From the NCBI GenBank assembly GCA_002840055.1, contig PGZJ01000002.1:124001-188000 (forward strand): DNA of 64,000 bases, written 5' to 3'. This DNA is from Gammaproteobacteria bacterium HGW-Gammaproteobacteria-11. Lineage in GTDB: Bacteria; Pseudomonadota; Gammaproteobacteria; Pseudomonadales; Pseudomonadaceae. The notes below the pieces were generated by a model. It saw only the letters and a program-made list of their open reading frames with translations. It was not told the origin of the DNA and did no database searches. Numbering within the stretch: the first letter of the stretch is position 1; every line of letters starts with the position of its first letter. Positions 5,445-46,704 of this stretch are shown here, in pieces. Made by a program: the position numbers and the translations under genes.

Positions 5445-5521
<77 letters not shown>

Positions 5522-15943: not shown

Positions 15944-18900
15944 TCATCTGTAGTGCAAGGAGACGCTGTCTTTGCCCAACTGGTCACGCAGGGCCTGCAC
16001 CAGGTCATCCGCCGGTTCAACCCGCCAGGCCTCACCAAGGCGCAGTTGGGCGGCCGCTTCCGGGCGCTGCAGATCAACCGTTACCGCGCAGTTGCCGGGG
16101 TACTTCTTCAGCAGTCCGGCCAAGTGTTCCAGGCTGGCAGGATCGTGCCGGGCACTATCCAGGCTGATACGCACGCTGTCCAGCAAGCTGGTACGCGCCT
16201 CCTCCAGCCCCATCACCCGTTTGACACGCATGCGCAGACCACCGGAGAAGTCATCCTGGCCGACCTCACCCTCAACCACCAGCAGCGCATCCTTTTGCAG
16301 CAAGGGCTGGGCAGCTTGATAGGCTTCGGAGTACAGCGCCACGTCGATTCGCGCCGAGCGGTCATCCAGGGTCACGATACCCATGGTGCCGCGCTTGCCC
16401 TTGACCACCCGCAGGTCAAAGACCAGACCGGCAATGGTCTGGCTGTCCCGCGAGGGCTTGAGGTCAATGATGCGCTGGCGGGCAAAACGGCGAATTTCCT
16501 TTTCATACTCATCAATCGGATGCCCGGTCAGATACAACCCCAGGGTCTCCTTTTCACCGCGCAGGCGCTCCTTCAATGCCCATTCACGGGCATTCAGGTA
16601 ATCAGCATAGACATCCCGTCCGGTGGCCGGCCCAAGCAGGTCGCCGAACAGGTCGGCATGGCCGCTGTCAGCACTCTTGGCGCTTTGCTCAGCGGCGGCA
16701 ATGGCTTCTTCCATCGCGGCCATCAGGGCCGCGCGGTTGCGATCCACCTGCTTGAGGTAGGCTTGCTGCTCTTCATCAAAGAACGGCCCCAGGCGGTCCA
16801 GCGCACCGGAGCGAATCAGCGCCTCCATCACCCGTTTGTTGATACGCTTGAGGTCAACCCGGGCGCAAAAATCGAACAAATCGGTAAAACTGCCACCCTG
16901 CAGACGCTTCTCGACAATGGTTTCCACCGGGCCTTCGCCGACGCCCTTGATAGCGCCCAGGCCATAGACCACGTTGCCGGCTTCATCGACGGTAAACTTG
17001 AACTCGGAGACATTCACATCCGGCGGAAGGATGCGCAGCTTCATGCTGCGGCATTCTTCCACCAGGGTCACAACCTTGTCGGTATTGTGCATATCCGCCG
17101 ACAACACCGCCGCCATGAAAGGCGCAGGATAGTGCGCCTTGAGCCAGGCCGTCTGATAGGAGACCAGACCGTAGGCGGCCGAGTGCGACTTGTTGAAGCC
17201 ATAACCGGCAAACTTTTCCACCAGATCAAAGATGTTTCCTGCCAGATCGGCATCAATGCCATTGCCGGCGCAGCCCTCAATAAAGCCGCCGCGCTGCTTG
17301 GCCATTTCCTCCGGCTTTTTCTTGCCCATGGCACGGCGCAACATATCCGCACCACCCAGGGTATAGCCGGCCATGACCTGGGCGATCTGCATCACCTGTT
17401 CCTGATACAGGATAATGCCGTAGGTCGGCTTCAGTACGGGCTCAAGACCGGGATACTGGTAATTGGGATGCGGGTAGGAGACCTCTTCACGCCCGTGCTT
17501 ACGGTTGATGAAGTCATCTACCATGCCCGATTGCAGGGGACCGGGGCGGAACAGTGCTACCAGGGCGATCAGATCCTCAAGGCAGTCTGGCTTGAGCTTC
17601 TTGATCAACTCCTTCATGCCGCGTGATTCAAGCTGGAACACCGCCGTGGTCTCGGCTTTCTGCAGCATGCGGAAGGTCGGCGCATCGTCCAGCGGAATAA
17701 AGTCGATATTCAACGGCTCCAGGCCTTGCTTGGCCTGCTCGCGGTTGATGGTCTCCATCGCCCATTTGATGATGGTCAGGGTGCGCAGACCGAGGAAGTC
17801 GAACTTCACCAGACCGGCGGACTCGACATCGTCCTTGTCGAACTGGGTTACCAGACCAGCTCCAGCCTCATCACAGTAGAGCGGGGCAAAATCCGTCAGT
17901 TTGGTCGGCGCAATCACCACACCACCGGCATGCTTGCCGACGTTACGGGTAATGCCCTCGAGTTTGAGTGCCATATCCCAGATTTCCTGGGCTTCCTCGT
18001 CATTGGTCAGGAAGTCACGGAGGATTTCTTCCTGCTCGTAGGCCTTGGTCAGGGTCATGCCTACTTCGAAGGGGATCATCTTCGACAGCTTGTCCGCCAG
18101 GCCATAGGACTTGCCCTGCACCCGCGCCACGTCACGCACCACCGCCTTCGCGGCCATGGTGCCAAAGGTGATGATCTGCGATACCGCCTGGCGGCCATAG
18201 GCATCCGCCACATAGTCGATAACCCGGTCACGCCCTTCCATGCAGAAGTCGACGTCAAAGTCGGGCATGGAAACCCGTTCAGGATTCAGGAAGCGCTCGA
18301 ACAGCAGGTCATACTGCAGCGGATCCAGATCAGTAATCAGCAGCGAATAGGCCACCAGCGAGCCCGCCCCCGAACCCCGGCCCGGCCCGACCGGTACGCC
18401 GTTGTTCTTGGCCCACTTGATGAAGTCCATGACGATCAGGAAGTAACCGGGAAACTCCATCTGGATGATGATATCCAGTTCGAAGTTGAGCCGATCAATG
18501 TAGACCTGCCTGCGGGCCTCGTAATTCTCCGAACCAGGCGGCAAGACTACCTTGAGACGCTCTTCCAGCCCCTCGAAGGAGACCTTGCGAAAGAAGTCCG
18601 CCTCACTCATGCCATCCGGTGTCGGAAAGGCTGGCAGAAAGTTCTTGCCCAGCTGCACGTCGATATTGCAACGCTTGGCAATCTCGACACTGTTGGCCAG
18701 CGCTTGAGGAATATCGGCAAACAGCTCGGCCATTTCCTCCGGACTTTTCAGGTACTGCTCATCACTGTACTGACGAACCCGGCGTGGATCATCAAGGGCC
18801 CGGCCTTCGCCAATACAGACGCGGGTTTCGTGGGCTTCAAAATCCTCGCGCTTGAGAAAGCGTACATCGTTGGTGGCCACCACCGGGCAACCACTCTGGC

Positions 18901-19465
18901 CCGCCAGTGCCACGGCGGCATGCAGATACTCCTCGTCATTCAGACGACTGGTGCGCTGAAGCTCAAGATAAAAACGGCCAGGGAAGATACCCATCCAGTA
19001 ATCCAGCAGCTCAGCAGCCAACTGCGGATTACCCGACAACAAAGCCAGGCCGATTTCACCTTCCTTGGCGCCGGACAGGGCAATCACATCCTGGCTCGAC
19101 TCGGCGATCCACTCGCGGCGAATGGTCACCAGACCGTTACGCTGACCTTCGGTATAACCCCGGGAGATCAGTTCGGTCAGATTGCGATAGCCATTACGGT
19201 TCATCGCCAGCAGGGTCATACGGGTAAGCTGGGTATCGTCATCACGGCCCAGCAACCACAGATCGACACCGGAAATCGGCTTGATACCACCACCCATGGC
19301 CGCCTTGTAGAACTTCACCAGACTGCACATATTGTTCTGATCGGTCACCGCCACAGCCGGCATCCCCGTCTCGGCAACTGCCTTGATCAAAGGCTTGATC
19401 TTGACAATGCCGTCAACCAGAGAGAACTCGCTGTGTACGCGCAGGTGAACAAAGGAATGCGTCAT
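15944..19465 (-). CDS. dnaE: DNA polymerase III subunit alpha
   Basis: The 1173-residue replicative polymerase contains an N-terminal PHP domain ([12 protein letters not shown]), the catalytic palm with [14 protein letters not shown] and the aspartate motif PDFDVDFC, the beta-clamp-binding and helix-hairpin-helix regions, and an OB fold near the end ([10 protein letters not shown]). The length is as expected. AGGA stands ahead of the ATG. It is not in tight linkage with rnhB as in some relatives, because a 477-base stretch with two structured repeats separates them. Confidence 0.98.
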
Positions 19466-19589
19466 GGTGGTCCTGTTTCTGAAGGCAACAACTGAGTTGG
19501 GATTGTACCGGCGGGGGGAGTTGGGGGCTACTCACATGGATGGCTGAATTTTTATGATTTGCTGAATCGCGTCTTTGCGATATGTGTAT

Positions 19590-19702
19590 GGCGAATGGAA
19601 AGGGGCAGGACACGCCGACACGCCGTAGATACGTCCATGTAGGCTCATCACTGGCATCCCTGCCAGTGACGGTCGGCTTAGCCCTGCCCCTTTCCATTCG
19701 CC
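19590..19702 (-). repeat. Structured intergenic repeat, copy A
   Basis: Outer arms 19590-19609 and 19683-19702 are a perfect 20-bp inverted repeat. Inside is a second short stem (GCCGAC 19614-19619 with GTCGGC 19672-19677) and the 58-bp core 19617-19674. Read on the minus strand, the core forms an 8-bp stem TCACTGGC/GCCAGTGA around the hexaloop AGGGAT, then CTACATGGACGTA, a small stem around ATGGAC. The core matches copy B at 53 of 58 positions, while the outer arms are unrelated to those of B. Confidence 0.85.
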
Positions 19703-19806: not shown

Positions 19807-19916
19807 CGGTTTCAGGCGGTGCGGCCTCCACTGACCGTCACTGGCAAGGATGCCAGTGATGAGCCTACAGGGATGTATTCACGGCGTGTCAGGGGAGGCC
19901 GTAGCGCCTGAAGCCG
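19807..19916 (+). repeat. Structured intergenic repeat, copy B
   Basis: Outer arms 19807-19829 and 19894-19916 are complementary at 20 of 23 positions, and two of the three exceptions would be G-U pairs in RNA. The core 19833-19890 carries the stem TCACTGGC/GCCAGTGA around AAGGAT, then CTACAGGGATGTA, where UAC/GUA closes the hexaloop AGGGAU. UACAGGGAUGU matches 11 of 12 positions of the CsrA/RsmA consensus RUACARGGAUGU. It lies just past the 3' end of rnhB, in the opposite sense. Confidence 0.85.
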
Positions 19917-19942: not shown

Positions 19943-20554
19943 CTAATCAAGCAACGCTATTACGTCACGCACCGGCGCAAAAGACCGACGATGAATAGGT
20001 GTAGCACCCAGCTCACGCAAAGCCGCCAGGTGTACCGGTGTTGGATAACCCTTGTGCTGAGCTATACCGTAGCCGGGATACAACAGCTCCAGCGCCTGCA
20101 TCTCGCGATCCCGGGCGACCTTGGCCAGAATCGACGCGGCGGCAATCGCCGGCACACGGGAGTCGCCCTTGATCACAGCTTCGCTGGGCATCGGCAGCAC
20201 CGGGCAGCGATTGCCATCGATCAGCACCCGATCCGGACGAGTGGACAGACCGGCCACAGCGCGCTGCATCGCCAGCATGGTAGCGTGCAGGATATTCAAC
20301 TGGTCGATTTCCTCGACCTCGGCACGGGCAATACACCAGGCCAGCGCACGTTCCTGGATCAGCGGAAACAGTGCCTCGCGGCGTGCTTCAGTGAGTTTCT
20401 TGGAATCGTTCAGGCCCTCGATCGGCCGTAGCGGGTCAAGGATCACCGCGGCGGTCACCACCGCGCCACAGAGCGGACCGCGCCCAACTTCATCGACGCC
20501 GGCAATCAGCTCATTGCCAACGGGTGCGCACCAGTCCATGGACAGCTGCGTCAT
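19943..20554 (-). CDS. rnhB: Ribonuclease HII
   Basis: The 203-residue nuclease removes ribonucleotides from RNA-DNA hybrids and misincorporated ribonucleotides from DNA. The active-site motif is [11 protein letters not shown], with Asp21 and Glu22; the segments GLNDSKKL and [10 protein letters not shown] are typical. Its ATG overlaps the lpxB stop by four bases (ATGA), the order lpxB-rnhB found in E. coli and Pseudomonas. It is the last gene of the long envelope cluster. Confidence 0.97.
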
Positions 20555-34442: not shown

Positions 34443-34578
34443 GACAGCTCCAAATTGTATTGGGTTGAGCCTCCACGTACCCCAATGTCCAACCCCGAAG
34501 GGCACCCAGGACACCGTGTCGATACGTGTGCGGTTTCAGTGTTCACCTGAGGTCAATTGACCGATGTTCTTTCAGGCG
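34443..34578 (-). promoter_or_regulatory. rpsB 5' leader with probable S2 autoregulatory structure
   Basis: The transcript leader contains a stem TGTCC/GGACA (complement of 34486-34513) around an inner CCC/GGG hairpin. S2-binding leaders are known ahead of rpsB in gammaproteobacteria; that this is one is inferred from position and structure. The rest of the 307-base map-rpsB gap holds only promoter sequence for both genes. Confidence 0.45.
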
Positions 34579-46592: not shown

Positions 46593-46704
46593 GGGGCAGA
46601 TTGCCCTGATCCACTGCCTGACCGTCGGTGCACAGGGACGTGCACCGACGAGCCCCAGGGACGGCTTGTTGCGTGTCAGGCAGTGGATCAGGGCGATCTG
46701 CCTC
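46593..46704 (+). repeat. Structured intergenic repeat, copy C
   Basis: Arms 46595-46622 and 46675-46702 are complementary over 28 bases, with a single T-G exception that would still pair in RNA. The core 46620-46677 has the stem GTCGGTGCAC/GTGCACCGAC around the hexaloop AGGGAC, then AGCC...GGCT around CCAGGGAC, and ends GCGTGTC like copies A and B. Stem sequences differ from A and B while the ANGGAN loops are kept. The remainder of the 262-base gap holds the terminator of the DUF4340 gene. Confidence 0.82.

Follow-up and report, generated by a model that had tools for sequence, protein, structure and literature searches.

The window, the whole stretch of 64,000 nucleotides that was analysed, holds three copies of an intergenic repeat, denoted here A, B and C (Table 1). 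Copies A and B lie together between two minus-strand genes, one rnhB-like and the other dnaE-like, and copy C is flanked by convergent open reading frames. An earlier note on this DNA had read copy B as two hairpins presenting GGA in their loops, had pointed to a segment resembling the preferred binding site of CsrA, and had assigned two ANGGAN sites to each of the other copies. Folding places both hairpins of copy B where they had been claimed, with AAGGAU in the first (H1) and UAC-AGGGAU-GUA in the second (H2). The segment UACAGGGAUGU indeed matches RUACARGGAUGU, the CsrA SELEX consensus, at 11 of 12 positions, and two ANGGAN sites are present in copy A (AGGGAU and AUGGAC) as well as in copy C (AGGGAC twice). 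A consensus scan of the locus for promoters and terminators returned one promoter-like site (plus strand, 19531-19558) and no terminator-like site. Elsewhere in the window lie a t44 RNA (34464-34550, minus strand; RF00127, 72.4 bits) and a tRNA (5445-5518, plus strand; RF00005, 64.2 bits).

Table 1. Repeat copies in the window, their parts and the genes next to copies A and B
Feature	Position	Strand	Basis or remark
Copy B, whole Y-shaped unit (outer stem, H1 and H2)	19807..19916	+	Fold z = -10.5; R1 91.6 bits at 19822-19901, with B in the R1 training set
Copy B outer stem, 5' arm	19807..19835	+	Paired in the minimum-energy structure
Copy B hairpin H1	19836..19861	+	ANGGAN site AAGGAU at 19846-19851
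Copy B hairpin H2	19863..19885	+	GCC-UAC-AGGGAU-GUA-UUCAC (bulge)-GGC; ANGGAN site at 19869-19874
Copy B outer stem, 3' arm	19888..19916	+	Fold
Copy A, whole unit (GGA strand is minus)	19590..19702	-	R1 73.7 bits at 19606-19685 (-), outside the training set; fold z = -10.65
Copy A GGA sites	H1 AGGGAU 19656-19661; H2 AUGGAC 19633-19638	-	
Copy C, whole unit	46595..46702	+	R1 54.7 bits at 46609-46688, outside the training set
Copy C GGA sites	AGGGAC 46634-46639; AGGGAC 46657-46662	+	
rnhB-like gene, one side of the A/B pair	19943..20554	-	ORF list; tblastn anchor; name recognised from the translation
dnaE-like gene, other side of the A/B pair	15944..19465	-	ORF list; tblastn anchor; name recognised from the translation

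All three copies fold into a three-way junction that consists of a locus-specific outer stem, hairpin H1 with a variable stem and an ANGGAN loop, and hairpin H2 with an ANGGAY loop. The unit is about 110 nt long, and its outer stems are long as well (quartiles 25-32 pairs). The folding energy is -82.1 kcal/mol for copy A and -76.5 kcal/mol for copy B, values that none of 200 shuffles equalled for either copy, as against -71.8 and -61.8 kcal/mol, respectively, for the opposite strands. In the minimum-energy structure of copy B, the stem of H1 has 11 pairs and the outer stem 27, and the A and U flanking each hexaloop also pair, leaving tetraloops. The 5-nt bulge of H2 is TTCAC in 49 of 87 elements retrieved by searches other than the genome-contig pattern and in 7 of 19 in the window's genome; UUCAC was considered as an additional conserved feature and dropped, given that the genome-contig search pattern itself contained it. 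In some units (L035, L036, L100, L177 and L337), H1 is split by a second small module built around GCTCCTGCA and a GCC-ATCCATG-GC hairpin. Read on the opposite strand, this module itself gives two GGA hairpins; it is seen again in Methylomicrobium and in the genus of the window.

Copies A, B and C belong to a large dispersed repeat family across Gammaproteobacteria; that the repeats are dispersed had been a hypothesis of the earlier note. At E <= 1, a covariance model built from 89 copies, R1, detects these three copies and no others in the window, and the model detects 19 in the window's genome. Matches occur in 28 of 37 genomes of the genus, with 7-68 copies each, and are lacking in the other 9; in a sample of the class, 53 of 274 genomes have matches, with copy counts that are floors, the scan having scored at most 17 candidates per genome. 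BLAST with copy B hits 7 places in the window's genome, B itself included, and 42 of the 96 genomes in a set of relatives, its own genome counted. The 24-nt core, with N and Y positions left free, is found in at least 120 stretches of a genome contig collection, and the matches listed include Halopseudomonas, Marinobacter, Alcanivorax, Methylomicrobium, Stenotrophomonas, Lysobacter, Rheinheimera and others. Phages and plasmids were considered as carriers and discarded, the exact core not being found in the viral contig collection nor the unit in the plasmid collection at E 1e-3.

The alignment of the 89 copies shows two-sided compensatory change in 27 of 29 pairs, and 92.9% of its cells pair, compared to 62.5% after shuffling and 32-41% when the partners are slid. 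Compensation is also seen between individual loci of genomes G000 and G027, for which orthology was inferred from the shared rnhB-dnaE gap. Of the 27 pairs of the copy B outer stem, 14 have changed on both sides and stay paired, 10 are the same, 1 has changed on one side and 2 are unpaired in one or both genomes. For copy A, the outermost 20 pairs include 7 two-sided changes, 12 pairs that are the same and 1 that is unpaired; these 20 were selected after an ungapped comparison in which no pair had changed on both sides and 12 of 27 positions were unpaired, a poor result caused by an unequal internal loop in the stem.

The mismatches left in the outer stems reveal which strand is folded. From 351 records, 252 were kept after those with short flanks or weak stems had been dropped, and these yielded 213 elements with distinct stems. 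Isolated mismatches in these stems comprise 222 G.U against 72 A.C (118 against 20 elements, p = 4e-18), a comparison that is unaffected by the choice of stems by complementarity, with G.U and A.C scored alike, which does inflate the pairing percentages. The excess is present whether the genus set (92:25) or the other taxa (130:47) are considered, and an earlier, smaller count ran in the same direction (178:65). Along the stem, the ratio is 21:3, 37:12, 42:10 and 83:17 in successive stretches up to pair 26, and the bias is gone beyond that point (38:30). When all mismatches in the first 28 pairs are counted, G.U outnumbers A.C by 274 to 56 and purine-purine outnumbers pyrimidine-pyrimidine by 191 to 35, with 90 of the 191 purine-purine mismatches clustered at the 6th to 9th pair from the junction. 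In the H1 stems, mismatches of any kind are few and there is no significant G.U bias (G.U:A.C 7:4). Because the mismatches of the outer stems would be A.C and pyrimidine pairs on the complementary strand, it is the GGA strand that must fold. Thus, the structure is maintained on the GGA strand, as RNA or as single-stranded DNA, and selection on structure fits both.

Quasi-palindromes of this kind could in principle arise neutrally, through template switching during replication that copies one arm onto the other with no involvement of selection. Such a process accounts for arms that are locus-specific and nearly perfect, and the disappearance of the strand bias past pair 26 agrees with it. However, template switching would mend G.U and A.C equally, whereas the observed biases are strand-specific, and the fixed GGA within variable stems is not explained. 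We disfavour this explanation and consider it very improbable.

The conservation of the loops had been put forward as a check by the earlier note, namely, whether ANGGAN is kept in dispersed copies while the stems covary, with GGA varying as freely as its neighbours as the refuting outcome. The result favours the note on both counts. The H1 loop is the informative one: H2 appears better conserved than H1, which is partly by construction because the detector and the genome-contig pattern contain the H2 GGA. Among 126 elements with distinct stems found by a pattern confined to H2, 117 had an H1 of the usual length (the 9 with unusual lengths were left out), and their H1 loops were ANGGAN in 102 cases, another GGA loop in 13 and lacked GGA in 2, that is, GGA was kept in 115 of 117. 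The loci found by BLAST and model search show a closely similar distribution (ANGGAN 70, other GGA 11 and none 2; n = 83). In the 89-copy alignment, the G, G and A of the H1 loop are kept in 88, 86 and 88 copies, respectively, the entropy of the preceding N is 1.5 bits, with G, T or A in that position, and the stem around the loop covaries. Within the window's genome, GGA is present in 18 of 19 H1 loops and in 19 of 19 H2 loops, the latter favoured by the model.

The presence of CsrA was also examined as a discriminator of repeat carriage and proved uninformative. The gene was found in 37 of 37 genomes of the genus. In the class sample, CsrA had no match in 4 of 53 repeat-positive genomes, of which G289 is 98% complete and the other three 67-88%; G289 was counted as CsrA-negative on account of its absence among the positives listed, and the class negatives were obtained by subtraction. 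The gene is nearly as common in repeat-negative genomes of the class (186 of 221).

We further compared the elements with their genomic context and with transcription signals. Gene orientation, taken from a simple longest-ORF caller, could be classified for 140 of the 213 elements, and 20 elements fell inside called ORFs. The G.U:A.C ratio was 26:8 in units sense to both neighbours, 40:15 in units antisense to both, 38:6 in convergent contexts and 15:2 in divergent ones. Since the G.U excess extends to antisense and divergent units, it is not explained by a site on the mRNA of the neighbouring genes. A promoter consensus scan of 210 elements showed no enrichment relative to the opposite strand (5 versus 1 at 9 or more matches, p = 0.49). 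An intrinsic terminator was considered as well and rejected, since none of the 210 elements has a T-tract (at least 6 of 8) following its 3' arm. On the opposite strand, 6 of the 210 elements have such a T-tract, and T is on average more frequent there than on the GGA strand (2.95 versus 2.04 of 8, p = 7e-12).

These data bear on a different role in RNA, whereby Y-shaped structures located between cistrons or at the ends of transcripts would shield RNA from 3' exonucleases or steer its processing, and the GGA loops would serve another protein or another fold. The intergenic location, the excess of convergent over divergent contexts (45 versus 16 of the 140 classified elements), the length of the outer stems and the purine-purine cluster close to the junction are all in line with such a role. 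A block to exonucleases, however, would need no ANGGAN in both loops, and the constraint does not depend on the orientation of the unit relative to genes. On balance, we find this explanation unlikely.

Neighbouring units show a distinctive arrangement. Of 48 distinct cases of units within 600 bp of each other, 43 follow the -+ order, in which the GGA strands diverge, at a distance of 150-326 bp; an earlier, smaller count ran in the same direction (30 of 36 pairs). The rnhB-dnaE gap was followed in 30 fetched loci, in 26 of which both genes were readable, and units were found by pattern in 10 of these 26. The 8 loci with two or more units all had the minus unit on the rnhB side; 15 gaps (74-253 bp) contained no units, and the gap of locus L207 contained units that had escaped the pattern and were visibly degenerate or interrupted. 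In both G000 and G027, the H1 stems of pair members are alike within the genome, which suggests that cores undergo local gene conversion. Two loci of genome G021 (L341 and L342) hold two unit subtypes that alternate in orientation (+ - +), resembling BIME arrays, and in a third (L340) two units point the same way. By eye, the spacers of some -+ pairs (L343, L348 and L350) seem to contain an additional small hairpin, GGCTGAGGG...CTCAGCC-like, and this hairpin may turn a -+ pair into one composite structure.

Some units also lie within what appears to be an IS5-like MITE. In three related genomes (G018, G029 and G030), 11 of 22 units examined lie, at constant spacing, between GGAAACACTGATTAA-like ends, 15-nt terminal repeats matched with up to 3 mismatches, which we take to be of the IS5 family; exact flanking target duplications of at least 3 bp accompany 4 of the 11. 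Taking these observations together with the pairing, the repeats could be hairpins of mobile DNA, akin to REPINs and BIMEs or to MITEs, with the GGA-strand hairpins read as single-stranded DNA by some transposase, so that the constraint on loops and stems would reflect mobility and not CsrA. This possibility would be compatible with the dispersal of the repeats and their range from 0 to 68 copies per genome within one genus, with the inversion of neighbours in the same arrangement and with a constraint that is independent of gene orientation, as well as with the terminal repeats. RAYT/Y1 genes were considered as the mobiliser and rejected. Around the 30 Y1 loci fetched, R1 has no match out to about 1.5 kb, the detector finds no unit in loci L218-L291, and the RAYT types do not strictly track the repeats: one type is present in 12 of 28 repeat-positive and 0 of 9 repeat-negative genomes at E <= 1e-40, becoming 17 of 37 genomes, one of them repeat-negative, at E 1e-10, and another type is present in both repeat-positive and repeat-negative genomes. 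Moreover, IS5-type transposition works on terminal repeats and would not maintain a Y-shaped fold on one strand, and the compensatory changes at corresponding positions indicate constraint on single copies. We regard a mobile-DNA origin of the constraint, the main rival of the reading that involves CsrA, as possible but doubtful. As a separate observation, twelve RAYT-type genes (L268-L279; NF047646 for the one tested) are flanked by repeated k-mers unlike the Y core, judged from the first four k-mers for each of the 12 genes, which is weak evidence.

Among known RNA families, the closest is TwoAYGGAY (RF01731), which the Rfam scan of the window at gathering thresholds did not report. Its model scores 32.9 bits against copy A (E 0.0022) and, weakly, 23.4 bits against copy B (E 0.31), neither of which reaches the gathering score of 43. 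In the loose Rfam scan, the lowest E-value, 3.5e-4, belongs to Ysr224 on the strand opposite to copy A, a match that likewise stays below the cut-off of its family. In the genus, RF01731 matches 12 of 37 genomes at E 0.01 and 3 of 37 above its cut-off. Among the loci of the genus matched by RF01731 that were fetched (30 of the 42 matches listed), 30 of 30 are also matched by R1 at E <= 2.2e-6, 3 of them being members of the R1 training set. None of the 18 exact-core loci scanned with RF01731 reach its cut-off. The two models describe overlapping families. All six loops in the window are ANGGAY and only AUGGAC of copy A is strictly AYGGAY, so that, given the sub-threshold scores, we call the repeat a relative of RF01731 and not a member.

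TwoAYGGAY was listed in 2010 by Weinberg et al. as probably an RNA, from human gut, Gammaproteobacteria and Clostridiales (PMC2864571), CsrA binding was proposed earlier for this RNA (PMC4333381), and according to a preprint of 2025 it is still relatively unexplored (PMC11661157). Our searches of open-licence full-text literature returned no description of these repeats as dispersed and no occurrence of the exact core strings, and nothing that joins REP, RsmA and GGA. In these searches, MITE and CsrA came up together only in the Rfam 12 paper. A paper on Alcanivorax that had appeared relevant to CsrA, sponges and repeat elements was set aside, its repeat elements being CRISPR repeats. As far as these searches show, it is new that the family is dispersed in many copies, that its constraint is strand-specific, that its units form inverted pairs and that MITEs carry some of them.

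Reading the repeats as binding sites for CsrA/RsmA, as the earlier note did, appears plausible and is partly supported by the sequence comparisons, and for the related RF01731 it is already in print. In its specific form, the explanation that we tentatively prefer, while giving it somewhat less than an even chance, is that the unit works as an RNA, presenting its two ANGGAN hairpins for binding by a CsrA/RsmA dimer. In its favour are the covarying stems, the strand bias, the kept GGA loops, the CsrA gene in every genome of the genus and the overlap with RF01731. The constrained molecule would be RNA produced by read-through or pervasive transcription, and the two adjacent hairpins of each unit would be positioned to engage a single dimer. 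An inverted pair would supply one GGA-sense unit whichever direction is transcribed, and the copies might jointly buffer CsrA or act locally on the transcripts that contain them. The cores would be kept alike by selection, perhaps aided by local gene conversion, and the outer stems would drift with compensation. The equally strong constraint on units antisense to both neighbours, the lack of promoter enrichment and the predominance of inverted pairs count against a simple sponge. Further difficulties for the CsrA reading are the lack of a T-tract, the H1 stems with no significant G.U bias, the weak RF01731 match of copy B and the 4 repeat-positive genomes of the class in which CsrA had no match.

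A broader scenario, which we offer as speculation that is probably wrong in at least some of its parts, combines this preferred reading with mobility. Under this scenario, a selfish, MITE-borne family present across Gammaproteobacteria would spread CsrA-binding Y-shaped RNAs through genomes as inverted pairs that yield one GGA-sense unit in either direction of transcription, and mobile DNA would thereby set the free level of a global regulator, to a different extent in sister species (0 versus 68 copies). Such a tie between the spread of MITEs and a global RNA-binding regulator is a possibility that gives the family wider interest. Apart from that, a relative of RF01731 missed by the Rfam cut-off is a large dispersed repeat family under strand-specific structural constraint, and it provides hundreds of natural variants for the study of CsrA binding, along with sister genomes that have the repeats and sister genomes that do not.

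The sponge sRNAs CsrB, CsrC, RsmX, RsmY and RsmZ carry GGA motifs in hairpin loops. The repeats resemble them in this respect and differ in that each unit has two sites, that copies are many and dispersed, and that neither promoter enrichment nor a T-tract is seen; the Rfam gathering scan of the window gave no match to the RsmX/Y/Z-type or CsrB/CsrC families. With REP, REPIN and BIME elements, the repeats share dispersal, intergenic location, hairpin formation and frequent occurrence as inverted pairs, but the Y-shaped fold with its GGA loops is larger and is not linked to the RAYT genes examined. The terminal repeats and target duplications around some units in G018, G029 and G030 resemble those of IS5-family MITEs; around copies A, B and C, no such ends were visible on inspection. 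TwoAYGGAY differs from the copies in its strict AYGGAY loops, seen in one of six loops here as against ANGGAY in all, and in the scores of copies A and B below 43 bits, and it shares with the repeat the pair of GGA hairpins and an outer stem with little conservation.
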